Assembly (NCBI GenBank): GCA_039995105.1
Contig: CP146203.1
Span: 1-64,000, forward strand
Origin: Jonesiaceae bacterium BS-20
GTDB taxonomy: Bacteria > Actinomycetota > Actinomycetes > Actinomycetales > Cellulomonadaceae
Length of the DNA: 64,000 nt
Direction of reading: 5' to 3'
A program made the translations under genes and the position numbers. Of the stretch, positions 29,037-62,571 are shown one piece after another (position 1 is the stretch's first letter; every line of letters starts with the position of its first letter). The notes beneath the pieces were generated by a model, which saw nothing but the letters and a program-made list of their open reading frames with translations, had not been told where the DNA came from and searched no databases.

Positions 29037-30779
29037 ATGACAACGCACCCGGTTCCCACAATCACCAAAGACCTTGACCTACTCCGCGCGGACCTCATGT
29101 CCGCGAATTTTACGGTTGATGGGGTGGGCGAGGTTCTGGGAGGCCTAGCAAACGAGGCCCTGCACCGAGAACAAACCCTTCCGGCCCTGCGGGCGCTCGC
29201 TGGCAATGAAGAGCCCACGGCCACGTTGATCAAGTTGTTTGTCCTGGGCCAACCGGTCACTTACTCGGCGGCCGCCGCGGCGTTTGGGAAGCTTACGGTT
29301 ACAGGAGCGCAGGCCATGAACCTCGTTGCCGAGGTCTCGAGGGCAGAAACGTCCCCTGAGATTGCGTCTACGCTCGAGGCTGCGCCCACCAATGAGACAG
29401 CACGCACCCAAGAGAATGTGCGCTCTGTCGAGGATGAGCTGGGGACCGAGTCACGTGTGAGCGAGCCTTCGTCTTCCCAACCGGCGTCATCCCAGCTGCA
29501 AGACCCCAGAGAACCCATGCTGAAGGCTCTGATCGAGATCCACCCGCATGGCTCAACCGATTCTCAGGGCTCGGTTGATTGGTGGTTGGCCTCCGATCTC
29601 AGCGAGTTGGCAACGGGAGGCGCACTCCAATCGGACCACGTGCTGGGAGCCGGTGGGGCATCATTAACTCTTGCTCAGGTCACGGCGCGTACCCCGGTTT
29701 CACGGGTGCTCGACCTTGGCACGGGCAGCGGGATCCAGGCCCTGTATGCGGCCCGGCATGCCCAAGAAATTGTGGCGACCGACCTGTCAGCACGGGCTCT
29801 TGAGTTTGCGCGGTTTAACGCTGCCCTCAACGAGATCACCCTAGACCTGCGGGAAGGCTCCATGCTCGAGCCCGTTGCGGGCGAGCGCTTTGACCTCGTA
29901 GTTTCTAACCCTCCGTTTGTCATCACTCCGCGCACCGAGGAGGGTGACGTGCTGCCGCAGTACGAGTACCGCGATGGTGGTGCGGCGGGAGACGATATTG
30001 TCCACAACCTGATTGTTGACTTGGGCGGCGTGCTGAATCCGGGTGGTAGCGCTTACCTGCTGGGCAACTGGGAGATTCAGCACGGTCAGCAGTGGCACAC
30101 CCGGATCAGCCAGTGGCTGGATGAGGCGGAGGCGGCACACGGACCTCTCGATGCCTGGGTGATTCAGCGCGAACTGTTAGACCCAGCGCGGTACGCAGAG
30201 ACCTGGATTCGTGACGGCGGAACCACCGAGGACAGAGACCCACAAGGGTATGCGGCCACGTACTCGGCCTGGCTCGATGACTTTGCGTCCCGCTCGGTTG
30301 AGGCCATCGGCTTTGGGATTGTGGTGCTGCGTAAGCCTGCCGTTTCCAAGACCGAAGCGGCCAACCACCCACAGCCTATGCGTCGCCTCGAGGAAGCTAC
30401 CGGAACCGTAGCGCAACCGCTGGGACCGGTAATCGCCGCGAGCATTGCGGCACACGATTGGGTGAGTGCCTTGACCGATCAAGAACTGGCCCAGCAGCGC
30501 CTCGTGGTGGCATCGGACGTCACCGAGGAACGGTTCTACACTCCCGGCGCCCAGGACCCGAACATTATTATCATTCGCCAGGGCCATGGGTTTGGCCGAG
30601 CGATTCAAGCGGGTACCACTTTGGCCGGATTGGTTGGGGCCTGCGATGGAGAACTGACGGTGGGGCAGATTCTTGGTGCGATTACGATGCTGTTTGAAGT
30701 GGACCTGACTGAACTTGCAACGGAACTGTTCCCGGACATCCGTGGTCTAGTCACCGATGGCTTGCTCGTCGGACAGTAA
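29037..30779 (+). CDS. DUF7059-type class I methyltransferase
   Basis: A 580-aa protein. An N-terminal domain of about 100 aa (LLRADLMSANFTVDGVGEVL) is followed by a low-complexity linker and then a class I SAM methyltransferase domain. That domain shows motif I VLDLGTGSGIQALYAA, motif II ATDLSARALEFARFNA and the catalytic LVVSNPPFVIT. NPPF marks enzymes that methylate an amide or exocyclic amine, such as RsmC, HemK or N6-adenine enzymes. The C-terminal part has an extra beta-rich domain. This domain order is common in actinobacteria; rRNA is a likely substrate, but this is inference. It begins 5 bases after the EEP remnant's stop. Confidence 0.82.
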   Translation: MTTHPVPTITKDLDLLRADLMSANFTVDGVGEVLGGLANEALHREQTLPALRALAGNEEPTATLIKLFVLGQPVTYSAAAAAFGKLTVTGAQAMNLVAEVSRAETSPEIASTLEAAPTNETARTQENVRSVEDELGTESRVSEPSSSQPASSQLQDPREPMLKALIEIHPHGSTDSQGSVDWWLASDLSELATGGALQSDHVLGAGGASLTLAQVTARTPVSRVLDLGTGSGIQALYAARHAQEIVATDLSARALEFARFNAALNEITLDLREGSMLEPVAGERFDLVVSNPPFVITPRTEEGDVLPQYEYRDGGAAGDDIVHNLIVDLGGVLNPGGSAYLLGNWEIQHGQQWHTRISQWLDEAEAAHGPLDAWVIQRELLDPARYAETWIRDGGTTEDRDPQGYAATYSAWLDDFASRSVEAIGFGIVVLRKPAVSKTEAANHPQPMRRLEEATGTVAQPLGPVIAASIAAHDWVSALTDQELAQQRLVVASDVTEERFYTPGAQDPNIIIIRQGHGFGRAIQAGTTLAGLVGACDGELTVGQILGAITMLFEVDLTELATELFPDIRGLVTDGLLVGQ

Positions 30780-48842: not shown

Positions 48843-50423
48843 ATGAAAATTCAGCACCGTTTGCGTGCCGCTGTTGCTGCAGTTGCCGTTGGGGCCGTTG
48901 TGGTTCTCTCCGGATGTTCAAGCTGGATCCCAGACCAGGATCCAAACCAGAATCCTGCCAACTCTTCGAGCTCTTCCGTGCCAGATCCTGCGCCGGTGAC
49001 GGGGCCAGCAGGCGTGGTACCTGCAAGTTTTGAGGAAATCTACAACCAGGATGTGGAGTGGACCAAGTGTGGTGGCGGGGCATTCCAATGTGCTGACATT
49101 CAGGTACCACTGGATTGGGACAATCCGGATTCTGAGAGCATCACCATTGCGGCTCAGCGGTACAACGCTCGGGAGAAAGCCATGGGAACGATCTTGGTTA
49201 ACCCGGGTGGACCGGGTGGATCAGGGATCGACCTAGTCAGTTATGCTCCCGCTGTTTTTGGTAGGGAACTGCTCAAGAACTACAATATCTTGGGGTTTGA
49301 TCCACGTGGAGTGGGGCAGTCCGAGCCGATTACTTGCCTAGAACCGGCCGAGATGGACAGGTTCTTGGCTACCTCTTATGGTGAGTTGACCGAGGATCTA
49401 TTAGTTAAAGCCACCGAAGAACAGAAAAAATTTGGTCAGGCCTGCGCCAAGAATTCCGGTGCGATTCTGGGTGAAGTAGATACACAAAGCGCTGCTAAGG
49501 ACATGGACCTCATGCGGGCCGTGGTGGGCGATGAGAAACTCAACTACCTGGGCTTCTCATATGGCACGCAACTGGGAGCCACCTACGCTGGAATCTACCC
49601 GGAAAATGTGGGAAAGATGGTGCTCGATGGCGCCATTGACCTGCGGTTGACCTCCCATGCGCAGAGCTTGCAGCAGGCGGTTGGGTTTGAAAACGCTCTG
49701 CGTGCGTTTGTGACTGATTGCCAGACCCGGTCCGATTGCGTCTTGCAAGGATCCGTTGATGATGGCATGAAGCAAATTGACCAGCTTCTATCCGGATTGC
49801 TGGCCAACCCTATGCCTACGGATCATGAGGGCCGGGTGCTAACTCAAAATCTAGGATTCTACGGCATGGCCCAGCCCCTGTATGCGGAGCCATTGTGGGC
49901 GATGCTGCGGGCGGCACTCACCGAGGCGATCATGGCAAATGATGGCTCGAGTTTGCTGGAACTCTCTGACATGTACTTTGGCCGTGAAGATGATGGCACC
50001 TATGCGGATAACTCGTTTGAGGCGTTCACCGCAATTAATTGCCTAGATAGCCGCGAAGACGCTGATTTTGCGACCATGCAGGCGGAGAACGCCGAGATTA
50101 TCAAGGCCGCACCGGTTATGGGCAAGTTCTTTGGGTTTGGAGCTGCAGGATGTGCGGACTGGCCGTACCCTGAAGCACCTCAGGACTTTGACCTCTCGGC
50201 GAAGGGTGCTGCACCGATCATGGTCATTGGAACTACCAATGATCCTGCAACTCCGTATATTTGGGCGGAAGGGCTATCTGAGCAGCTTGAGTCCGGGTTC
50301 TTGGTAACCCATGTTGGTGAGGGACACACAGCTTACGGCCAGGGTAGTGCCTGCATCGTTGAAGTGGTTGATGACTACTTTGTGAATGGAACAATCCCAG
50401 CCAAGGATCCAGAATGTAAGTGA
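48843..50423 (+). CDS. Secreted TAP-like alpha/beta hydrolase lipoprotein
   Basis: A 526-aa lipoprotein: signal peptide MKIQHRLRAAVAAVAVG and lipobox VLSGC, then a Ser/Pro/Asn-rich linker. The alpha/beta-hydrolase core has the oxyanion region VNPGGPGGSGI, nucleophile elbow GFSYGTQLG (Ser239), and a C-terminal TAP-like domain with Asp (GTTNDPATP) and His (GEGHTAYGQG). This is the layout of actinobacterial tripeptidyl aminopeptidases and SlpD/SlpE-like proteases. ATG 48843 is chosen over 48783 because it makes a proper signal peptide. The stop TGA falls exactly in the first unit of the 7-bp satellite that follows. Confidence 0.9.
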   Translation: MKIQHRLRAAVAAVAVGAVVVLSGCSSWIPDQDPNQNPANSSSSSVPDPAPVTGPAGVVPASFEEIYNQDVEWTKCGGGAFQCADIQVPLDWDNPDSESITIAAQRYNAREKAMGTILVNPGGPGGSGIDLVSYAPAVFGRELLKNYNILGFDPRGVGQSEPITCLEPAEMDRFLATSYGELTEDLLVKATEEQKKFGQACAKNSGAILGEVDTQSAAKDMDLMRAVVGDEKLNYLGFSYGTQLGATYAGIYPENVGKMVLDGAIDLRLTSHAQSLQQAVGFENALRAFVTDCQTRSDCVLQGSVDDGMKQIDQLLSGLLANPMPTDHEGRVLTQNLGFYGMAQPLYAEPLWAMLRAALTEAIMANDGSSLLELSDMYFGREDDGTYADNSFEAFTAINCLDSREDADFATMQAENAEIIKAAPVMGKFFGFGAAGCADWPYPEAPQDFDLSAKGAAPIMVIGTTNDPATPYIWAEGLSEQLESGFLVTHVGEGHTAYGQGSACIVEVVDDYFVNGTIPAKDPECK

Positions 50424-50620
50424 GCGGTGAGCGGTGAGCGGTGAGCGGTGAGCGGTGAGCGGTGAGCGGTGAGCGGTGAGCGGTGAGCGGTGAGCGGTGA
50501 GCGGTGAGCGGTGAGCGGTGAGCGGTGAGCGGTGAGCGGTGAGCGGTGAGCGGTGAGCGGTGAGCGGTGAGCGGTGAGCGGTGAGCGGTGAGCGGTGAGC
50601 GGTGAGCGGTGAGCGGTGAG
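50420..50620. repeat. 7-bp satellite, about 28 copies
   Basis: GAGCGGT is repeated about 28 times without visible variation, beginning in the last codons of the TAP-like hydrolase gene. The stop codon is the first TGA of the array. With a 7-base unit, all three frames are read in turn; the minus-strand frame (His-Arg-Ser-Pro-Leu-Thr-Ala repeats) is an artefact. Perfect homogeneity suggests recent expansion. Nothing is coded in 50621-50809. Confidence 0.95.
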
Positions 50621-50809
50621 TCCTGTAACCATACCGAGTCTGGACCGGTACCAAAATAGCGCACCATATTGAATTCCAAGGCAAGCGAGAGAGTGACGAC
50701 TGTAACGTATCCCACCGTGGGTCGTTTTGCAGAAAGCATGGTTGGGTCGGTAGAGTTATCGAGGTTCTTCACTCACATCAATGACACGCTCTGGGTGTGG
50801 GAGAAGCCG

Positions 50810-50882
50810 GCCGCCTTAGCTCAGTCGGCAGAGCGTTTCACTCGTAATGAAAAGGTCGCGAGTTCGATTCTCGCAGGCGGCT
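50810..50882 (+). tRNA. tRNA-Thr (CGT anticodon)
   Basis: A 73-nt cloverleaf: acceptor GCCGCCT pairing with AGGCGGC, D-arm around AGCTCAGTCGGCAGAGC, anticodon loop CTCGTAA with CGT at 50843-50845, and T-arm TCGCGAGTTCGATTCTCGC. CCA is not encoded. Mobile-element genes begin just downstream, so its 3' half is a likely attachment site. Confidence 0.95.
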
Positions 50883-51194
50883 CAATCCTGGCACGTAAGG
50901 TGCTGGAACCCAGCCCTCGAATCCGTTTTCGGATTCGGGGGCTTTTTCATGCCATGTTGGCATTAGGTCGTTGACTGTCAAGCCTAGAAAATTGGCAACT
51001 AGCAGCAACTCTGTGGCTGACCACCCCGTCCCCCCTTTTAGTTTTCTACTAACTGAAGCGCTAGTGACGCCAAGCAGGGTAACCAGAACCCGTTGCTCCA
51101 AATCGTGAGCAAACAAATATTGGCGCACGGTCATACCAATCGCCTGGTCGGCGCTCATTTTCTTAGCCGCTGGTGCTTCAACTGTCATTGCCAT
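50838..51194 (-). CDS. XRE-like helix-turn-helix protein running into the tRNA
   Basis: A 118-aa frame. Residues about 30-80 form a Cro/C1-type helix-turn-helix (QRVLVTLLGVTSASVSRKLK, then GWSATELLLVANFLGLTV). The last 35 residues read through the tRNA-Thr terminator and into the tRNA itself in antisense, ending RESNSRPFHYE. The globular part probably ends near residue 80. It may regulate excision or transfer genes. The Shine-Dalgarno is weak, and ATG 51188 (MTVEAPA) is an equal start. The overlap suggests that integration placed the tRNA end behind this gene. Confidence 0.6.
   Translation of the reverse strand: MAMTVEAPAAKKMSADQAIGMTVRQYLFAHDLEQRVLVTLLGVTSASVSRKLKGGTGWSATELLLVANFLGLTVNDLMPTWHEKAPESENGFEGWVPAPYVPGLSRLRESNSRPFHYE
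50912..50947 (+). terminator. tRNA-Thr terminator
   Basis: The stem GCCCTCGAATCCG / CGGATTCGGGGGC with a TTTT loop is followed by TTTTTC. It lies 30 bases after the tRNA. Confidence 0.9.
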
Positions 51195-51312
51195 GAATTA
51201 ACTATCTCAAGGATTTGCGTTAAATGCAATCAGTCAATTGAAACGCACTTGATTGTGTGCCACACTCAATGCATCTAGTTGCGTTTTTCTCAACCAAGAG
51301 AGGTGTGTGAAA

Positions 51313-51522
51313 GTGACTGCAAGTGTTGAGTCTTTGATCGAGTTGCAGGAAGCCGCAAAGTTGTTGCCTGGTACAACGCCCGGAACTCTGCGGCGTTGGG
51401 CAGATGCTGGGATAGTTGCGCATGTGCGCTTGCCTGGAGGGCGTCTCTGGTTTGATCCCGAGGATGTCAAGGCTTTGATGATTGTTGTGGAGCCATCAGG
51501 TGGCGGCAGTGGTGTCGGCTGA
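51313..51522 (+). CDS. Excisionase-like HTH protein (MerR/HTH_17 type)
   Basis: A 69-aa protein with one winged-helix of the excisionase/HTH_17 kind. ELQEAAKLLPGTTPGTLRRW is the helix-turn-helix and VRLPGGRLWFDPEDVKALM is the wing, which is usual for proteins reading a single half-site. GTG 51313 is at good distance from AGAGAGG at 51297; GTG 51307 is possible. In integrated elements such proteins bend DNA at att sites or control the integrase. The integrase gene itself is not in view. Confidence 0.7.
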   Translation: MTASVESLIELQEAAKLLPGTTPGTLRRWADAGIVAHVRLPGGRLWFDPEDVKALMIVVEPSGGGSGVG

Positions 51523-51532
51523 CGTGGCGTTT

Positions 51533-51682
51533 TCAGTGTTTGTACCAGATCCCATTGATGTCGATGAACGTGATCACGCTGATCTTCCCTTGCTCGCGCA
51601 GGTGGAATTGATCGCTAATCCGTTTGAGCTCTTCCATGGTGACCGTGACTTCTTCGCCATTTTTAGCGGTGAACGTGAACAT
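51533..51682 (-). CDS. Small hypothetical protein (49 aa)
   Basis: A short protein MFTFTAKNGEEVTVTMEELK and onward, predicted as a beta-hairpin followed by a helix and two strands, ending in INGIWYKH. The pattern (NGEEVTVTMEEL) looks like a real small domain, but I do not recognise a family. A longer frame begins at 51787. It is on the strand opposite to its neighbours. The surrounding 51683-51887 shows no other gene. Confidence 0.4.
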   Translation of the reverse strand: MFTFTAKNGEEVTVTMEELKRISDQFHLREQGKISVITFIDINGIWYKH

Positions 51683-51887
51683 GAAAGTTTCCCATCTGTG
51701 TACCCGCATGGCGTTTCCGTGCTGGGTATACGGGAGCCGAATAGTCTCTCTGTTCTGGCTCCTGCGCGCCGGTTGATATCGGATCAATCGCCGCGTCGGT
51801 GGCGGGATGCTTGCAGGCGTCCCGCCACTACCTCTTACGTACCGTTGTGCACGCCCGTGACGGCGCTAAAGGCCAGGTGGTGCACCA

Positions 51888-52154
51888 ATGAATGATCGTT
51901 TGATGGAGCTCGCGTGGCAGGCTCGTTGCCCCTCTATGGGCGAGAAATTAGTCCTGCTGGCATGTGCTTATCACGCCACGAATGGCTCCCAGGTGCGCAT
52001 AGACCCACAAGTTTGGGCTGGGCGCTTGGGTATGTCTATTGGTCGCGTTGAAGCGGCTATTTCAGCGTTACATCGTGCCGGGCTGGTTGATGCTCGGCGT
52101 TGGGAAGATTCCGGCTGCTGGTCAGCTCGCGTGCTACTTGGAGGCAAAAAATGA
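51888..52154 (+). CDS. Small winged-helix protein 1 of the array (88 aa)
   Basis: An 88-aa protein with the replication-initiator-type winged helix: ELAWQARCPSMGEKLVLLAC, then VRIDPQVWAGRLGMSIGRV, then ALHRAGLVDARRW. It is the first of a run of related small proteins. Its stop overlaps the next start (ATGA), so the run is read by coupled translation. Function is unknown; DNA binding is likely from the fold. Confidence 0.7.
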   Translation: MNDRLMELAWQARCPSMGEKLVLLACAYHATNGSQVRIDPQVWAGRLGMSIGRVEAAISALHRAGLVDARRWEDSGCWSARVLLGGKK

Positions 52155-52432
52155 GTAAGAAAGCGACCACTTGGGCTTGGGAACAAGACGTTTGTACGGA
52201 GCAGTCAATTATTTTGTTAGCACTCGCTCACTTCCTGGACGAAGGACGCATTGTGGCACGTATGCCGATGGCAGAGCTTGTGCGTAAGTCGAGGCAGACG
52301 CAAGCAGAAGTGCTTGTGAGGTTACAAGAACTCAAGCCACAAGGGCTGATTAGTTACGACCTAAACCTTATCCCGGACACGTTGGTCTACTCGTTGCCGG
52401 TTGAACTCGATGAGGTGGACACGGATGAGTAG
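52151..52432 (+). CDS. Small winged-helix protein 2 of the array (93 aa)
   Basis: A 93-aa protein starting MSKKATTWAWEQDVCTEQ. WAW, an aliphatic helix LLALAHF and a recognition segment LVRKSRQTQAEVLVRLQELK form the same winged helix as the following larger protein. It starts at ATG 52151 inside the stop of protein 1 and overlaps protein 3 by 8 bases. The acidic C-terminus (VELDEVDTDE) is not part of the helix-turn-helix. Confidence 0.7.
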   Translation: MSKKATTWAWEQDVCTEQSIILLALAHFLDEGRIVARMPMAELVRKSRQTQAEVLVRLQELKPQGLISYDLNLIPDTLVYSLPVELDEVDTDE

Positions 52433-52790
52433 CGATTACGTAGTTATTCGTTCGGGCGCTAGCGTGCTTCGAGATGACGTAGTGAACTCGCAGTTATCTA
52501 TTGCTGCTATCGGCTTACTCACGTTGGCACTGACGCAACCAGGTGGTGTTGACCTAGGGGCAGAAACGTTTGTCGGACGCGGGTTTGATGAAGAAACTAT
52601 CGGCGCTTCGATGCAGGAACTAACTGATGCAGGGCATCGTCACGTGTTCACACTAACCTCAGCGACTGGTGCTACGGACCAGATCACCATCTTCTCGGAT
52701 GAATCCATCGGGTCTGACGTGGCTCTAGAAAGATTCCTTCAAAATCGTATTGGCCCCATGGCTGATGAGGCTAAGGAGATCTTGAAATGA
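52425..52790 (+). CDS. Small winged-helix-like protein 3 of the array (121 aa)
   Basis: A 121-aa protein. The strand-helix pattern VIRSGASVLRDDVVNSQLSI, then AAIGLLTLAL and EETIGASMQELTDAGHRHVF resembles the N-terminal domain of plasmid and phage replication initiators of the DnaD or RepA type. It overlaps its neighbours by 8 and 4 bases. The usual second-helix basic residues are few, so DNA binding is less certain than in the other members. Confidence 0.6.
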   Translation: MSSDYVVIRSGASVLRDDVVNSQLSIAAIGLLTLALTQPGGVDLGAETFVGRGFDEETIGASMQELTDAGHRHVFTLTSATGATDQITIFSDESIGSDVALERFLQNRIGPMADEAKEILK

Positions 52791-53791
52791 GCGTTAAGGC
52801 TTCGTCGTGGGCTTGGTCATTAAAATCGGTCAGTGGCCACGAATTGTTGGTACTGCTGGCGCTGGCTGATGCCGCAAATGATGATGGCTACTGCTGGCCA
52901 TCCCAAGCAGAGATTGCTTGTAAAGCCCGGCAGGTTGATCGCACAGTGCGCCGCCATCTGACTTCACTTACACAAAAGGGCCTAATCCAGGTGGAGACTC
53001 GGATGCGTCGCGGTTGGGGCAATGGCCGTTCTTCGAATGGATACTACCTAAATTTGGGAATGACTGACGCAGACGTTGTTGCAGGTCAGACACAACCGGA
53101 CAATCTGTCCGCATGTGAAGTGGAACCAGAAACACCTCCTGTGGATAACTTACATAACCGCAGGTCAGACACAACCGGACAATCTGTCCTGTTGTCACCA
53201 CAACAGGACACAGGTGTCCGGTCACAACAGGACACAGGTGACCGGTTGTATCCTTATGGGTCTTTTAACCATCATGATGAACCACCAAACCAAACCATGG
53301 TCCCAGCGCAACCTTCGGATGCTGCTGGTGCTCTGGGTGTGGTTCGGTCTGGTTTGGTTGGAACTTCGAATCTCAAAGACGCCATGCTGCTGGTCCGTAA
53401 GTGCTTGCCAGATCCGATGCACATCATTGACGCGCAGCTAGCGCCGAGCGTTGGCCAGATGCTGCAAGAACGTTTGGATGCTGGCTGGTCTCCTGCACAG
53501 ATCCGGGCGGCTATGGATCAACCATTGCCTGCCCAGGTCAGCCGTTTAGGGTCGCTTGTCGCAAAGCGATTGGCGACCAACGTGCTTCCCGAGTTGGCAC
53601 CGGAAGCGCTTCGTAAGGAGGCATTGGGCCGGGTTGCAACTATCCAACCGGTGGATGACGAACCCCTCGTAGATCCGCGTTTTAATGCGGTTTGTGAGCG
53701 AATTCGACATGAAAATCCTGAGTTCTCGCAACGTAAAGTCGCTGAACTCGCCTATGCGCAGATCCAACAAAGTTCCGGTGCATTGCCATGA
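52787..53791 (+). CDS. Replication-initiator-like winged-helix protein
   Basis: A 334-aa protein. Residues 1-95 are a winged helix of the phage O/plasmid RepA kind (ASSWAWSLKSVSGHELLVLL, CWPSQAEIACKARQ, LTSLTQKGLIQVETRMRRGW). Residues about 98-170 are a polar disordered linker (GQTQPDNLS, SPQQDTGVRSQQDTGDR). The C-terminal part is helical (PAQIRAAMDQPLPAQ) and may bind a partner helicase or DnaA. The linker DNA carries a dense repeat array and a DnaA box (53081-53246), just as phage lambda gene O carries the origin. It starts in the stop of protein 3. Replication of the element is the likely role; this is inference. Confidence 0.7.
   Translation: MSVKASSWAWSLKSVSGHELLVLLALADAANDDGYCWPSQAEIACKARQVDRTVRRHLTSLTQKGLIQVETRMRRGWGNGRSSNGYYLNLGMTDADVVAGQTQPDNLSACEVEPETPPVDNLHNRRSDTTGQSVLLSPQQDTGVRSQQDTGDRLYPYGSFNHHDEPPNQTMVPAQPSDAAGALGVVRSGLVGTSNLKDAMLLVRKCLPDPMHIIDAQLAPSVGQMLQERLDAGWSPAQIRAAMDQPLPAQVSRLGSLVAKRLATNVLPELAPEALRKEALGRVATIQPVDDEPLVDPRFNAVCERIRHENPEFSQRKVAELAYAQIQQSSGALP
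53081..53110. repeat. 30-bp repeat copy A1 (candidate iteron)
   Basis: First of two identical 30-bp copies (second at 53160-53189). The copy ends with the palindrome GGACAATCTGTCC. The two copies lie 79 bases apart start to start, so they are read in different codon phases of the same gene. Confidence 0.85.
53140..53148 (-). promoter_or_regulatory. Consensus DnaA box
   Basis: TGTGGATAA on the plus strand is TTATCCACA on the minus, an exact match to the bacterial DnaA box. It lies between the two 30-bp repeat copies inside the initiator-like gene. Confidence 0.6.
53160..53189. repeat. 30-bp repeat copy A2 (candidate iteron)
   Basis: Second exact copy of the 30-bp unit. It is directly followed by the inverted repeat TCCTGTTGT / ACAACAGGA at 53187-53208, which links it to the B repeats. 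Confidence 0.85.
53199..53246. repeat. 24-bp direct repeat pair B1/B2
   Basis: Two adjacent copies of a 24-bp unit (53199-53222 and 53223-53246) differ at one base. Each contains GGACACAGGTG(T/A)CC, a near-perfect palindrome of the same GGAC-n-GTCC type as in the A copies. Confidence 0.85.
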
Positions 53792-54714
53792 GTGCATCCT
53801 GGGAACTTTGGACCAGGTCGTTGCGCGGTTTGACGCCTTCAGAGATGGTTTGTGTTCGTGAGATTGCCCAGCTCGCAGATCTACGTGGCGTTGCCATCGT
53901 GCCTGCGGATTATCTTGCAGAAGCTACGGGGCTTCACCGGGTCACCGTGGTACGTAACCTAACAAATCTAGAGACCAAGGGGCACTTGGTGCGGGAACGT
54001 CGCCGCAGCGGCAGGCGTCAGGCACCTTCGCGTTTGCAGTTGCTAAGGAAACCCATAACACGTCATGAAACCACTAGATTGCCTGACAGAAGGCCTGAGA
54101 ATGTATGGGCGGGGGCAGCTGAGGCTTTGGCTGGCGTTGAGCCGGTTGAGACGAATGAGGGGCTACGTGCGGCCCTAATTGGTGCTCGTGACCATGGTTG
54201 GGGTTCGGAGTATGGCCGTATTGTCATTGCATCGTTGCTGCATATGGCGCCGCGTCAATTCTCTGCAATTCATAAGCGCCGTATTGCTATTGAAGACTTT
54301 GAAGAACGTAAACTCGATACGCTTTCGGTGGCCTGGGAGGTGGTTAATGCACAGGCAGATACCCTGATCGAGGCCACAAAGCCGTGGGCGATGCTCACCA
54401 CGATTGTTGCCAGGCATACTGCCCAGACTGATGAAGAAAACTCGTTCGAATCCGATAGTACCGATCCTCATATGTTCCCAGAAGAGGGTACTCGACCTGG
54501 TGAAGGTGTGGATGAAGAAATCTCCATCGGGATCGATGACTTTGACAAGAATCTGTCGCGGCTGGTGGAAGCCCTGATTGCTGCTGGTATGTGTGAAACA
54601 CTTGCCTGGGCGGGAACGGGCAGGATTGCTAGCCTAGCTGTGGTAGAGAAGTCTCGTCGCCAAACTGTTGCTGCCAGGGATTACAAACTTGAGGCTCTGG
54701 GGGGTGACTCCTGA
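53788..54714 (+). CDS. Winged-helix protein 5 of the array (308 aa)
   Basis: A 308-aa protein. The N-terminal winged helix (MSASWELWTRSLRGLTPSEM, PADYLAEATGLHRVTVVRNL, RERRRSGRRQ) is related to the preceding proteins. The C-terminal 200 residues are mostly helical, with an acidic segment (GVDEEISIGIDDFDKN). No catalytic motif is visible. It starts at ATG 53788 in the stop of the initiator-like gene and overlaps the 47-aa gene that follows. Possibly a replication or partition partner. Confidence 0.65.
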   Translation: MSASWELWTRSLRGLTPSEMVCVREIAQLADLRGVAIVPADYLAEATGLHRVTVVRNLTNLETKGHLVRERRRSGRRQAPSRLQLLRKPITRHETTRLPDRRPENVWAGAAEALAGVEPVETNEGLRAALIGARDHGWGSEYGRIVIASLLHMAPRQFSAIHKRRIAIEDFEERKLDTLSVAWEVVNAQADTLIEATKPWAMLTTIVARHTAQTDEENSFESDSTDPHMFPEEGTRPGEGVDEEISIGIDDFDKNLSRLVEALIAAGMCETLAWAGTGRIASLAVVEKSRRQTVAARDYKLEALGGDS

Positions 54715-54847
54715 GGCGGCGCGTATGTGGATGAATATCCTTGCAGGTTCCCGTCGAGGTGCACAAACCGGTATTATCTCCACATCGGACGATGAACTTG
54801 CTCAGATCGCCCAAGAAATAGTTTCTAAGTTGTCCCAAGCTGCCTAG
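54704..54847 (+). CDS. 47-aa coupled small protein
   Basis: A short frame, MTPEAARMWMNILAGSRRGA and onward, ends with a helix DDELAQIAQEIVSKLSQ. It starts at GTG 54704, 11 bases before the end of the previous gene, so it would be translated by coupling. Composition is protein-like and fully helical. No family is recognised. Confidence 0.5.
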   Translation: MTPEAARMWMNILAGSRRGAQTGIISTSDDELAQIAQEIVSKLSQAA

Positions 54848-54909
54848 TGACCATGACGCGCATCATGTCCGAATCCAAGAATGTGAGTTGGGTCCGTCGC
54901 CGGGTGAAA

Positions 54910-54944
54910 AGTGCTGTAGGGCATCGTCAGGTGCCCTACAGTAC
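54910..54944 (+). terminator. Long hairpin after the winged-helix operon
   Basis: A 14-bp stem (arms AGTGCTGTAGGGCA and TGCCCTACAGTACT, one G-U) with an 8-base loop is preceded by GGGTGAAA, the same octamer as in the two modules downstream. There is no T-run, so it may end the operon with help or act as a protein site. Confidence 0.5.
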
Positions 54945-55004
54945 TGAATACTGAGCCATAGAAGTGCACTGGTTGAGCTAGTGATGAAAGAAATAGAATT
55001 GACC

Positions 55005-55065
55005 GGGTGAAATATTTGTCAGGGTAGCAATCTGCTACTCTGACTTATTTGGTTGCGGGTGAAAT
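55005..55065. repeat. 61-bp hairpin module, copy 1
   Basis: GGGTGAAAT at both ends encloses a hairpin with arms GTCAGGGTAGCA and TGCTACTCTGAC (12 bp, one G-U) and the tail TTATTTGGTTGC. The second copy is at 55166-55226 with 5 differences. Confidence 0.85.
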
Positions 55066-55165
55066 AGGTTCGGAAGAGCCAAGAACAGATCTTGACCACC
55101 CAAGGAGTACTGCAACCCAAATCTGATGGTTTATTGGATCGGGGTGGAAACGCTTTTGTTTGAGT

Positions 55166-55226
55166 GGGTGAAATATTTGTCAGGGTAGTAATCCGCTACC
55201 CTGACGTTTTTGGTTGCGGGTGAAAT
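55166..55226. repeat. 61-bp hairpin module, copy 2
   Basis: Same design as copy 1. The hairpin is GTCAGGGTAG / CTACCCTGAC; one change turns a G-U pair into G-C, and the tail is GTTTTTGG. It ends 5 bases before the stop of the minus-strand 86-aa gene, so it could terminate that transcript. The 100 bases between the copies hold no gene. Confidence 0.85.
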
Positions 55227-55230
55227 TGAT

Positions 55231-55491
55231 TTAAATGCCCATGATTTTGTTGATGGTTTCCCGGTAGTCCGTGTCTTGGCCAACGATGGCCCAGTCTGAG
55301 TGGGCTATGGCTTGGATGCGGTAGAAGATTTGGAACCGTTCGATGGGGATCTCATTTATCTTGGCAAACCGAGCTGCCTCAAATTCGGCTTCTTCATAGC
55401 TACTCGCCCATAGCGGGGTTCGTGTCGGGTTGTCTGGGTCGTGACCATCCCAGGTGATGCAGTATTGGTGGTCGATGTAGGGGCCTTTCAT
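55231..55491 (-). CDS. Hypothetical protein (86 aa)
   Basis: An 86-aa soluble protein with aromatic residues and alternating strands and helices (MKGPYIDHQYCITWDGHDPD, then SSYEEAEFEAARFAKINEIP, then RIQAIAHSDWAIVGQDTDY). It begins 11 bases after the stop of the long Glu-Pro-repeat gene on the same strand, with AAGG upstream. It is probably co-transcribed with that gene. No family is recognised. Confidence 0.6.
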   Translation of the reverse strand: MKGPYIDHQYCITWDGHDPDNPTRTPLWASSYEEAEFEAARFAKINEIPIERFQIFYRIQAIAHSDWAIVGQDTDYRETINKIMGI

Positions 55492-55502
55492 TGCTAGGCC
55501 TT

Positions 55503-57608
<2,106 letters not shown>

Positions 57609-59456: not shown

Positions 59457-59513
59457 GGCTTCTCCTTGGTGTGCGTGCACGGTCGTACGTATTACGTAGG
59501 AGGTGCAACGCAC

Positions 59514-60098
59514 ATGACTGAAACCAATCCATGGCTTGCCGCTATACAAACGGATGAGCCGCAACCAGTAGTTGACGAGGTGCCTGATCAGCAGGTTGTT
59601 TCGTGGCAACCAGGCCAGGTGGCAGCGCCAAGTGTGCCTGGTGGGTTGCGTACTGCGCCGTGCCAGGGTGATGGCCGTTTATGGGTTGTGGCCGCACACG
59701 GGGGAGCTGGTGCTACCACGGTTGCCCGGTTGCTTGATGCTGGTGATGCGGGGCAGGTTTGGCCTGCCCCAAGGTCGGGTTCCGTATCAGCGGTGGTAGT
59801 GGCTCGGCATCATTTGTCTGGTTTACGTGCAGCTCAAGCTGCGGCGATCCAATGGGCGTCCGGGGTCATTCCTGGTGTGCATCTGGTGGGTTTGATCCTG
59901 GTCGCTGACTCTCCTGTGAAGCAACCCAAAGAGCTTGCTGAGTTTCAGCGGCTGGTGATGGGGGCTTTTCCTGCCGTGTGGCACGCAGAATACGTGCCTG
60001 CTTGGCGGGTCCAAGATCCGTGGGAATCCAATGTCCCTCGGTCATATAAGAAAGTGCTGTCCCAGGTTGGGGCGGCGTTTGAAAGGAAAACACCATGA
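59514..60098 (+). CDS. ParA/MinD-like protein with altered P-loop (DUF6668-like)
   Basis: A 194-aa protein. After a polar N-terminal region of about 50 residues comes LWVVAAHGGAGATTVARLLD, which resembles the deviant Walker A of ParA/MinD proteins but lacks the Lys (GGAGATT). VVVARHHLSGLRAAQAAA and VHLVGLILVADSP fit the later strands. It resembles the DUF6668-type proteins that sit at the head of actinobacterial conjugation operons. Without the Lys, ATP hydrolysis is doubtful. ATG 59514 has AGGAGG. Stop overlaps the next start (ATGA). Confidence 0.65.
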   Translation: MTETNPWLAAIQTDEPQPVVDEVPDQQVVSWQPGQVAAPSVPGGLRTAPCQGDGRLWVVAAHGGAGATTVARLLDAGDAGQVWPAPRSGSVSAVVVARHHLSGLRAAQAAAIQWASGVIPGVHLVGLILVADSPVKQPKELAEFQRLVMGAFPAVWHAEYVPAWRVQDPWESNVPRSYKKVLSQVGAAFERKTP

Positions 60099-61152: not shown

Positions 61153-62571
61153 ATGGCGGATTGCAGCTGGTTTGACATTATTTGCAAAGGCAAAGAAGGC
61201 GTTACTGAGATGGCAGGCAATGCCGTTGCACAGTTCGCTGAACAAGTCATGGTTGGTGTCAGTAATGTTCTTGTCTCGTTAGGCACAGCGTGGATTCATA
61301 CCCCCAGTATCAATCTGGAAAGTAATGCGGCCCGGAAATTTATTACCGAACATGTGCAATTTCTCGTGCTAGCGCTGCTGGCCGGGGCCATCATCATGGT
61401 CGGCATACGGATTGTCTGGACCCGCAGGTTAGAACCTTTGCAAGACATCATGGCAGGGGTTTTCCAGTTCCTAGTGGTCTCCCTTGGTGGGATCAAAATC
61501 ATGTCGATGTTGATTGACGCTTCGGATGAGTTTTCGGCTTGGATCATTGACCAATCTGTTGGTAGCGGTGAATTTGCGGCCTCACTGATGGGAGTGCTCA
61601 CCGTGGGGAACGCTGTAGCTCCTGGTGTGGGGTCCATGGTGATGATTATTGGCGGGATTATTGCGTTGATTGCCAACTTGATCCAGGTGGGTTTGCTCTT
61701 TGTACGCAACGCATTGCTGATCTTGCTCGCGGCAGTCATGGTGTTACCGGCAGCGATGCCTGGTTCGAATATGGGTAAGGAATGGTTCAAAAAACTTGGT
61801 GGCTGGTTCTTAGCTTTTGTGTTGTTCAAACCAGCTGCATCCATCATTTATGCAACAGGCATCACCCTGGTTGGTAGTGGTGGCATTGGTGGCATTGGTG
61901 GCATTGGTGGCGGTGATGCGCTGGTCGCATTTGCCATGGGCATGTTGTTCCTTGTGCTGGCCCCAATTGCGTTACCAGCATTAATGGCGTTTATTGTTCC
62001 CTCTGTATCTGCGCTATCTGCCGGTGGCGGCGGTGGTGCTGCTGGTCTGGCTATGGCGGCAGGATCAGCTGCAACCGGTGCGGCCAAGGTTGCTTCTGGT
62101 TCGGGTGGTGCAAGCGGCTCTGAAAGTTCCTCACATAGCAACTCATCGGAGTCCTCGTCAACGCAGTCAACTAGTAGTGCTACAGGCGCTTCTGACACGG
62201 CAAGCTCCGGTGGCGGTAGTGGAGGGAATCAAGGGACCGGCTCATCTGGTGGATCTGCTGGGTCTTCTGCTGCACCAGACAGCGCGGCCTCAATTTGGGC
62301 ACCTAGTGCGGGGGCAGCAAGTGATGCTGGTGGTGCTGCGGCCTCGGGTGCTGGTACGGCCAGTGCTGGTAGTGGAGCGGCAGCTTCGGGCGCAGGTGCG
62401 GCAAGCGCTGGTGGTGCGGCAGCGTCTGGTGCAGCTGCGGCTGGTTCCGGTGGGGCTTCCTTAGCGGTCCAAGGTGTGGCCGAGGGTGCTCAAGGTGTGA
62501 CTGGTGCGGTCCAGAGCACAGTGGACTCAGAAACTGGCGGAGCTACAGGATCGGGGCAAACCGATGAGTGA
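61153..62571 (+). CDS. TrbL/VirB6-like type IV secretion membrane protein
   Basis: A 472-aa protein. Residues about 60-300 have six to eight transmembrane helices (FLVLALLAGAIIMVGIRIVW, LLFVRNALLILLAAVMVLP, MGMLFLVLAPIALPALMAFI) with the usual TrbL pattern, including a Trp-rich amphipathic segment EWFKKLGGWFLAF. The C-terminal 170 residues are Gly/Ala/Ser low complexity. TrbL/VirB6 forms the inner-membrane channel. It is the fourth gene of the operon and overlaps the next start by 8 bases. Confidence 0.8.
   Translation: MADCSWFDIICKGKEGVTEMAGNAVAQFAEQVMVGVSNVLVSLGTAWIHTPSINLESNAARKFITEHVQFLVLALLAGAIIMVGIRIVWTRRLEPLQDIMAGVFQFLVVSLGGIKIMSMLIDASDEFSAWIIDQSVGSGEFAASLMGVLTVGNAVAPGVGSMVMIIGGIIALIANLIQVGLLFVRNALLILLAAVMVLPAAMPGSNMGKEWFKKLGGWFLAFVLFKPAASIIYATGITLVGSGGIGGIGGIGGGDALVAFAMGMLFLVLAPIALPALMAFIVPSVSALSAGGGGGAAGLAMAAGSAATGAAKVASGSGGASGSESSSHSNSSESSSTQSTSSATGASDTASSGGGSGGNQGTGSSGGSAGSSAAPDSAASIWAPSAGAASDAGGAAASGAGTASAGSGAAASGAGAASAGGAAASGAAAAGSGGASLAVQGVAEGAQGVTGAVQSTVDSETGGATGSGQTDE

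Follow-up and report, generated by a model that had tools for sequence, protein, structure and literature searches.

The gene at the centre of this locus, at 52787-53791 on the forward strand of the 64-kb stretch of DNA analysed here (the window), encodes a putative replication initiator of 334 aa. In the protein, a winged helix at aa 1-90 and a helical C-terminal part are joined by a linker (aa 98-192) for which disorder is predicted. The winged helix, which had been proposed from the sequence alone, is confirmed by a match to Pfam HTH_36 (8.7e-11) and is confident in an AlphaFold2 model, built from an eight-sequence alignment (pTM 0.32, mean pLDDT 68.3), in which the linker has no structure (pLDDT near 33). 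Up to an E value of 0.1 the only Pfam matches are HTH_36, LexA_DNA_bind and DnaD_N, and the C-terminal part has none. The best PHROG match is phrog_1032 (replication initiation, 5.5e-22 over aa 1-141), and phrog_391 (replication initiation O-like, 4.6e-20 over aa 1-117) matches the N-terminal part only. Structure comparison found a common winged helix of many kinds and no specific relative: 4pt7 ('Structure of initiator') and 4pql, both of which we take to be RepA_N proteins, reached Z scores of 8.3 and 8.4 (Foldseek E 0.04 and 0.19), with many unrelated winged helices scoring equal or higher. Because so many kinds of winged helices match, the fold alone is of little diagnostic value.

The DNA that encodes the linker contains a DnaA box and repeats on both strands and in different codon phases. 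Two 30-bp copies on the forward strand (53081-53110, containing CAACCGGACA-ATC-TGTCC, and 53160-53189) are identical, and since they are spaced 79 nt apart they are read in different phases. Two 24-bp copies, also on the forward strand (53199-53222, containing CAACAGGACACAGGTGTCC, and 53223-53246), are 96% alike. An 11-nt inverted repeat pairs 53185-53195 with 53200-53210 at 100%, and an alternative pairing has 15-nt arms, 53185-53199 and 53220-53234, that are 93% complementary. Palindromes of the form GGACA-n-TGTCC start at 53098, 53177 and 53206, with a single extra one elsewhere in the window, at 30771. The smallest consistent repeat unit, as recognised by eye, is CAAC(A/C)GGACA, often with TGTCC 3-4 bases later; it has four direct copies (53093, 53172, 53201 and 53225) and one inverted copy (53185-53195, reverse strand, TGTCCTGTTGT on the forward strand), and no further exact copy was found outside the array in the window. 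Between the 30-bp copies, at 53140-53148 on the reverse strand, lies the sole exact DnaA box of the TTATCCACA type within the 64 kb (TGTGGATAA on the forward strand), where the codons CCT GTG GAT AAC are translated as PVDN. The 7-kb host dnaA region contains TTGTCCACA, and TTATCCACA is absent from it. A BLAST search of the whole 3.53-Mb genome (E 0.001) with the 170-base array segment returned the segment itself and its own inverted repeat, and no second copy.

Immediately after the repeats comes a candidate unwinding region, the AT-richest 45 nt of the gene (53243-53287, 62% AT, with a start accurate to about 2 nt), followed by an inverted repeat in which a C-rich arm, ACCAAACCAAACC (53284-53296), pairs with a G-rich arm, GGTCTGGTTTGGT (53346-53358). 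The sequence-only reading had listed the 30-bp and 24-bp pairs, several palindromes, the 11-nt inverted repeat and the DnaA box as a candidate origin, and all of these are present where it placed them. Its right limit, drawn at the end of the 24-bp pair, was too short, as the AT-rich segment and the C-rich/G-rich inverted repeat reach about 53358.

Relatives of the initiator were sought at several levels. A family-level search with the full protein matched 9 of 221 genomes, all except the genome of origin through the DNA-binding part alone, and eight such genes were left out of the count. At the order level 6 of 396 genomes were matched; one of these matches (L042) reads as an unrelated protein and was discarded. 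A scan of genome contigs gave five loci with winged-helix similarity only. The set compared below comprises 29 genes: the window gene, a sister gene in the same genome, and 27 of the 31 matches from one related family, perhaps Actinomycetaceae, in which 28 of 213 genomes were matched. In phage and plasmid collections the window protein had no match, nor did the product of the neighbouring partner gene among plasmids. From the related set, L055 as query retrieved 17 plasmid records, among them pCmus45274 with 77% of the query covered, L050 retrieved at least 27 plasmid and at least 73 phage records, and L061 retrieved none from those collections. Among the matches listed for L055 and L050, none covers 80% of the query and nearly all, with pCmus45274 as the exception, are confined to the DNA-binding part.

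Repetition was measured as the number of direct and inverted 9-mer pairs lying no more than 300 bases apart, with synonymous-codon shuffles, in which the protein is unchanged, as the reference. In the window gene 38 pairs are direct and 12 inverted, whereas 200 shuffles gave 5.2 pairs on average and 18 at most. Repeat counts exceed all 200 shuffles in 27 of the 29 genes, and the repeat mass is centred in the linker (median aa 135-225 in the family genes), while none of 24 control ORFs from the same loci, each longer than about 180 aa, exceeded all of 100 shuffles. Together with the phase shift of the 30-bp copies, these counts uphold the earlier suggestion that selection acts on the DNA rather than on the protein, and we regard this selection, the anatomy of the array and its conserved layout as established. 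Relatives lacking the repeats, which the sequence-only reading had named as evidence against an origin, are represented weakly, by the two genes below that mark, L041 (10 of 200 shuffles) and L068 (61 of 200).

The position of the repeats is kept in most relatives, a comparison that had been suggested along with the candidate origin: the arrays lie in the same linker. In 27 of the 29 genes, 45 nt that rank among the top 2% of the gene in AT content start near the last repeat (from 3 codons before to 27 codons after it), whereas 61 rounds of random placement gave 7.0 such genes on average and 13 at most; several of the 27 have an equal or near-equal AT stretch elsewhere in the gene as well. Exact DnaA boxes are present in 10 of the 29 genes, as compared with 0.77 on average and 4 at most after shuffling; none occurs in 60,730 nt of flanking sequence or in the other 19 genes, the sister included. 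The box is in one reading frame in nine of the ten genes: the exact codons of the window gene are found in seven box genes, L050 has the same codons and L051 has its box in the same frame. L065 has two boxes on the other strand. Most family genes also have a C-rich and then a G-rich tract downstream, whose complementarity is higher within genes (mean 9.17) than between genes (7.74; 0 of 5000 permutations), although this hairpin is only a lead because relatedness and base composition are confounding and the composition rule used for picking tracts missed some.

By eye, the DNA-binding domains fall into five groups: A, window-like (8 genes), B (5), C (8), D, sister-like (6), and E (2). Arrays of group A are mostly CAAC-GG-nCA palindromes, with ACA in the window, TCG in L045 and CCA in L049, L050, L051 and L058, and with L040 and L068 as deviants. 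No repeated 9-mer is common to the window and any class A relative, so the kinship of the window array to this group rests on the by-eye consensus. Group B arrays contain TACCGGTCA or GTGAGCCCCAT, group C arrays CACACATGCAAC and others, and group D arrays palindromes of the sister type, from which L043 and L060 differ.

The sister initiator (369 aa, L021 8959-10068, at 338.96-340.07 kb of the same genome) provides the strongest case for a coupling between array and DNA-binding domain. Its C-terminal part is 84% identical to that of the window protein (core score 0.99), whereas its DNA-binding domain scores only 0.04, as for an unrelated domain, and its linker contains different palindromes, ACCGTGCGGC and GCCGCACGGT, in an array at L021 9326-9512. 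The window and sister arrays have 0.19 of their repeated 9-mers in common, derived from the 11-mer GCAGGTCAGAC. With L057, L059 and L061, which come from other genera, the sister array has repeated 9-mers in common at 0.62-0.69; these proteins have the same domain type as the sister (DNA-binding scores 0.46-0.52), and their C-terminal scores against it are only 0.38-0.40. Over 406 pairs, array similarity is correlated with that of the DNA-binding domain (Mantel 0.338) and that of the C-terminal part (0.292), each matched by 0 of 1000 permutations; the two protein similarities are themselves correlated at 0.358, and the partial Mantel values are 0.261 and 0.195, respectively. Since the sister array matches genes with the same domain and distant C-terminal parts, the array mainly tracks the DNA-binding domain, and the coupling is real, if not exclusive. 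As separate observations, the 11-mer GCAGGTCAGAC (at 53081 and 53160 in the window array) has 15 copies in the genome (G000:C1) and its reversed pattern has 0, an abundance for which the genomic contexts of the copies, as printed, give no explanation. Three class D initiators that were scanned (L021 8959-10068, L043 and L061) have no Pfam match above the curated cut-off, so family annotation would miss them.

Upstream of the initiator lie several small genes on the forward strand, whose occurrence elsewhere was surveyed with tblastn in the 20-kb surroundings of 14 of the 27 relatives, some of these loci ending ahead of the conjugation block. The first, 51253-51522, encodes a small MerR/HTH_17-like protein (Pfam HTH_17 and MerR each 1.1e-4, under the curated cut-off) matched in all 14 loci, not always near the initiator. 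It is followed by three stand-alone winged-helix ORFs, compared with two at the sister. The ORF at 51888-52154 is 96% identical in the sister element and is matched in 4 of the 14 loci; that at 52151-52432 is 80% identical in the sister element, matches phrog_6643 (replication initiation, 1.3e-5, query 52100-52432) and has no match in the 14 loci. The third, 52425-52790, directly precedes the initiator and is a stand-alone DNA-binding domain of the class D initiator type, 50% identical to the domain of the sister initiator. At least one small winged-helix ORF is found upstream in 9 of the 27 other loci, each with about 1 kb or less of upstream sequence. The class D domain among the three at the window fits an exchange of domain and array in which the old domain was left behind, with the direction of the exchange being presumed. 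Origin specificity may be a movable cassette, in which the DNA-binding domain and its in-gene array are exchanged as a unit before a conserved C-terminal part and the upstream winged-helix genes are left-overs or spares; we put this forward as a tentative proposal, one we would not yet favour. Two further features lie on this side of the element. A repressor-like protein (50838-51194, reverse strand, Pfam BetR 1.1e-4), whose frame enters the tRNA-Thr gene, has a counterpart beside the sister element, and a run of short tandem repeats with the translation (LTAHRSP)n (50233-50772) is found just ahead of tRNA-Thr, between a hydrolase gene and the element. An Rfam scan of 50500-56000 at gathering thresholds found nothing but this tRNA.

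Downstream, the initiator is followed by a partner gene (53788-54714, forward strand), which encodes a winged-helix protein, possibly a helicase loader, and is matched in 10 of the 14 loci (alignment A3). Its frame is broken near the end, and the conserved end resumes in another frame; the sister's copy (L021 10065-11126) has an in-frame stop near its start. The conjugation block starts with a DUF6668 protein (59466-60098, forward strand, Pfam 8e-14, 9 of 14 loci) and includes a probable membrane protein (61153-62571, forward strand, 10 of 14 loci), with VirB4 and VirD4 genes beyond the window at 64.1-67.2 kb. The VirD4 protein (L018 15474-17192) matches T4SS-DNA_transf and TraG-D_C above the Pfam cut-off, and the matches of L018 14104-15486 are of VirB4 type, all below curated cut-offs. 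VirB4 and VirD4 are each matched in 9 of the 14 loci, and both ATPases together in 8. DUF6668, VirB4 and VirD4 are also matched on a circular plasmid of Corynebacterium mustelae, pCmus45274, whose initiator relative has repeats in excess of 200 shuffles; the window partner protein has no match there, and since the plasmid carries a gene annotated RepA as well, it does not amount to proof of the origin. No relaxase or integrase was found among the scanned proteins of the window's element, and no end repeat of tRNA-Thr longer than 14 nt in 50-110 kb. Because the scanned parts gave no ends, integrase or relaxase and the partner gene is broken, the window copy of the element may be decaying. Other genes of the region include one for a 701-aa protein with a long Glu-Pro repeat (55503-57608, reverse strand), with a C-terminal stretch that is also present in the sister element and at 2 of the 14 loci, and two IS21-like gene pairs after the conjugation genes (L019 970-5627), named from their sequences and not from a profile.

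We consider it very probable, on these sequence comparisons, that about 53081-53358 is a theta-type replication origin inside its own initiator gene, in a family of conjugative elements with type IV secretion. Most relatives bear out the main predictions that an in-gene origin, as first suggested for this locus, makes at the sequence level; these fall short in the two of 29 genes not above their shuffles and in the DnaA box, which is confined to about a third. At such an origin the N-terminal winged helix would bind the CAAC(A/C)GGACA-n-TGTCC repeats and host DnaA the box between the 30-bp copies, upon which the AT-rich stretch right after the last repeat would open. Recruitment of the replication machinery, possibly by helicase loading, would fall to the C-terminal part, maybe together with the partner protein. 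The array would belong to the replication module of the conjugative element. An origin can be tolerated inside the gene because the encoded linker has no fixed structure. On this reading the window copy of the origin may still be functional.

It is improbable that the array is instead an operator, bound by the winged-helix protein purely for transcriptional control of its own operon. The N-terminal domain does resemble many regulators, and the element has several small winged-helix genes, but the array lies mid-gene, downstream of the start, the window has no other exact copy of the unit, and a consensus scan of 50700-55500 found no promoter-like site; moreover, an operator needs neither an AT-rich stretch in fixed order nor a DnaA box. 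Alternatively, the array could serve the conjugative element as its origin of transfer or for recombination, since it heads the conjugation gene block and has inverted repeats fit for a relaxase or recombinase. This we hold to be very unlikely, since arrays differ among elements with similar VirB4 and VirD4, largely tracking the domain in the same gene, and the PHROG matches are to replication initiation. Finally, although the linker is predicted to be disordered and such stretches drift and expand, the repeats are almost certainly not a by-product of it without DNA function, as copies read in different phases and from either strand yield unrelated peptides, and synonymous shuffling abolishes the repeats in 27 of 29 genes; on these grounds a protein-level cause was rejected.

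Replication from an origin within the initiator gene is best known from phage lambda, with which the sequence-only reading had compared this locus. Pfam contains a family for the phage replication O protein, and this family is absent from the matches of the window initiator up to E 0.1. The analogy stands for the way of working, with iteron-like repeats in the initiator gene and a match of the N-terminal part to PHROG O-like families, but not for family membership by Pfam. In lambda O the C-terminal part binds the helicase loader P, and the partner gene next to the window initiator may encode a counterpart of that loader. The origin of lambda, ori-lambda, has four iterons with inner symmetry and an AT-rich region within the initiator gene (PMC6022878), and P22 and L gene 18 each have a different repeat set within the coding region (PMC8022706). 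In contrast to lambda, the window array has a DnaA box among its repeats, the C-terminal part is without a Pfam match, the element is in no phage as far as seen, and type IV secretion genes follow.

The closest way of working appears, by analogy, to be that of pSK41 Rep, in which the origin, with its four Rep boxes, encodes the central linker between an N-terminal DNA-binding domain and a separate C-terminal domain (PMC5703833); the window protein likewise has three parts, with candidate origin boxes in the linker DNA. A chimeric initiator gene has been reported for pPR9 (PMC5703833). However, RepA_N (PF06970) has no match up to E 0.1 in the window protein and none in six other family initiators scanned, and the present family, from an actinobacterium and its relatives, differs in that the DNA-binding domain and array change between sisters while the C-terminal part is kept. 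In repABC replicons oriV also lies within the initiator gene, mid-repC, where an AT-rich stretch matters (PMC3155836), but repC of p42d is described as without iterons and without DnaA boxes, both of which (as repeats and box) the window gene has. The RP-C domain has no match in the window protein and one under the curated cut-off in L039 (0.013). Integrated actinobacterial conjugative elements of the pSAM2, pMEA300 and SLP1 kinds have a replication function of their own (PMC3218068). They are described as replicating through RepSA, RepAM or Prim-Pol and as having a single FtsK-like protein; when the survey of these elements was extended to 15 further Rep families, it gained one additional element (PMC3218068). 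The window element differs from these in its O-like winged-helix initiator, in which RepSA, RepAM and Prim-Pol have no Pfam match, and in its VirB4/VirD4 genes. No paper on this initiator family was noticed among titles and the beginnings of abstracts, which does not prove that there is none.

The principle of an in-gene origin is already known; what is new is this family, a domain and origin that seem to be swapped together, and the stand-alone binding domains upstream. In-gene origins have been known for single phages and plasmid families, and here 29 cases can be compared, in which one C-terminal part is combined with four or more DNA-binding domain types (distinguished by eye) and the arrays mostly match the type. 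Repeats that are destroyed by synonymous shuffling suggest a route to finding in-gene origins from sequence alone. If the cassette exchange is true, it would be the means by which the two sisters in one genome became mutually compatible. With 29 cases and varied domains, a code that pairs winged helices with DNA sites, and with it the incompatibility of actinobacterial conjugative elements, becomes testable by domain swaps.
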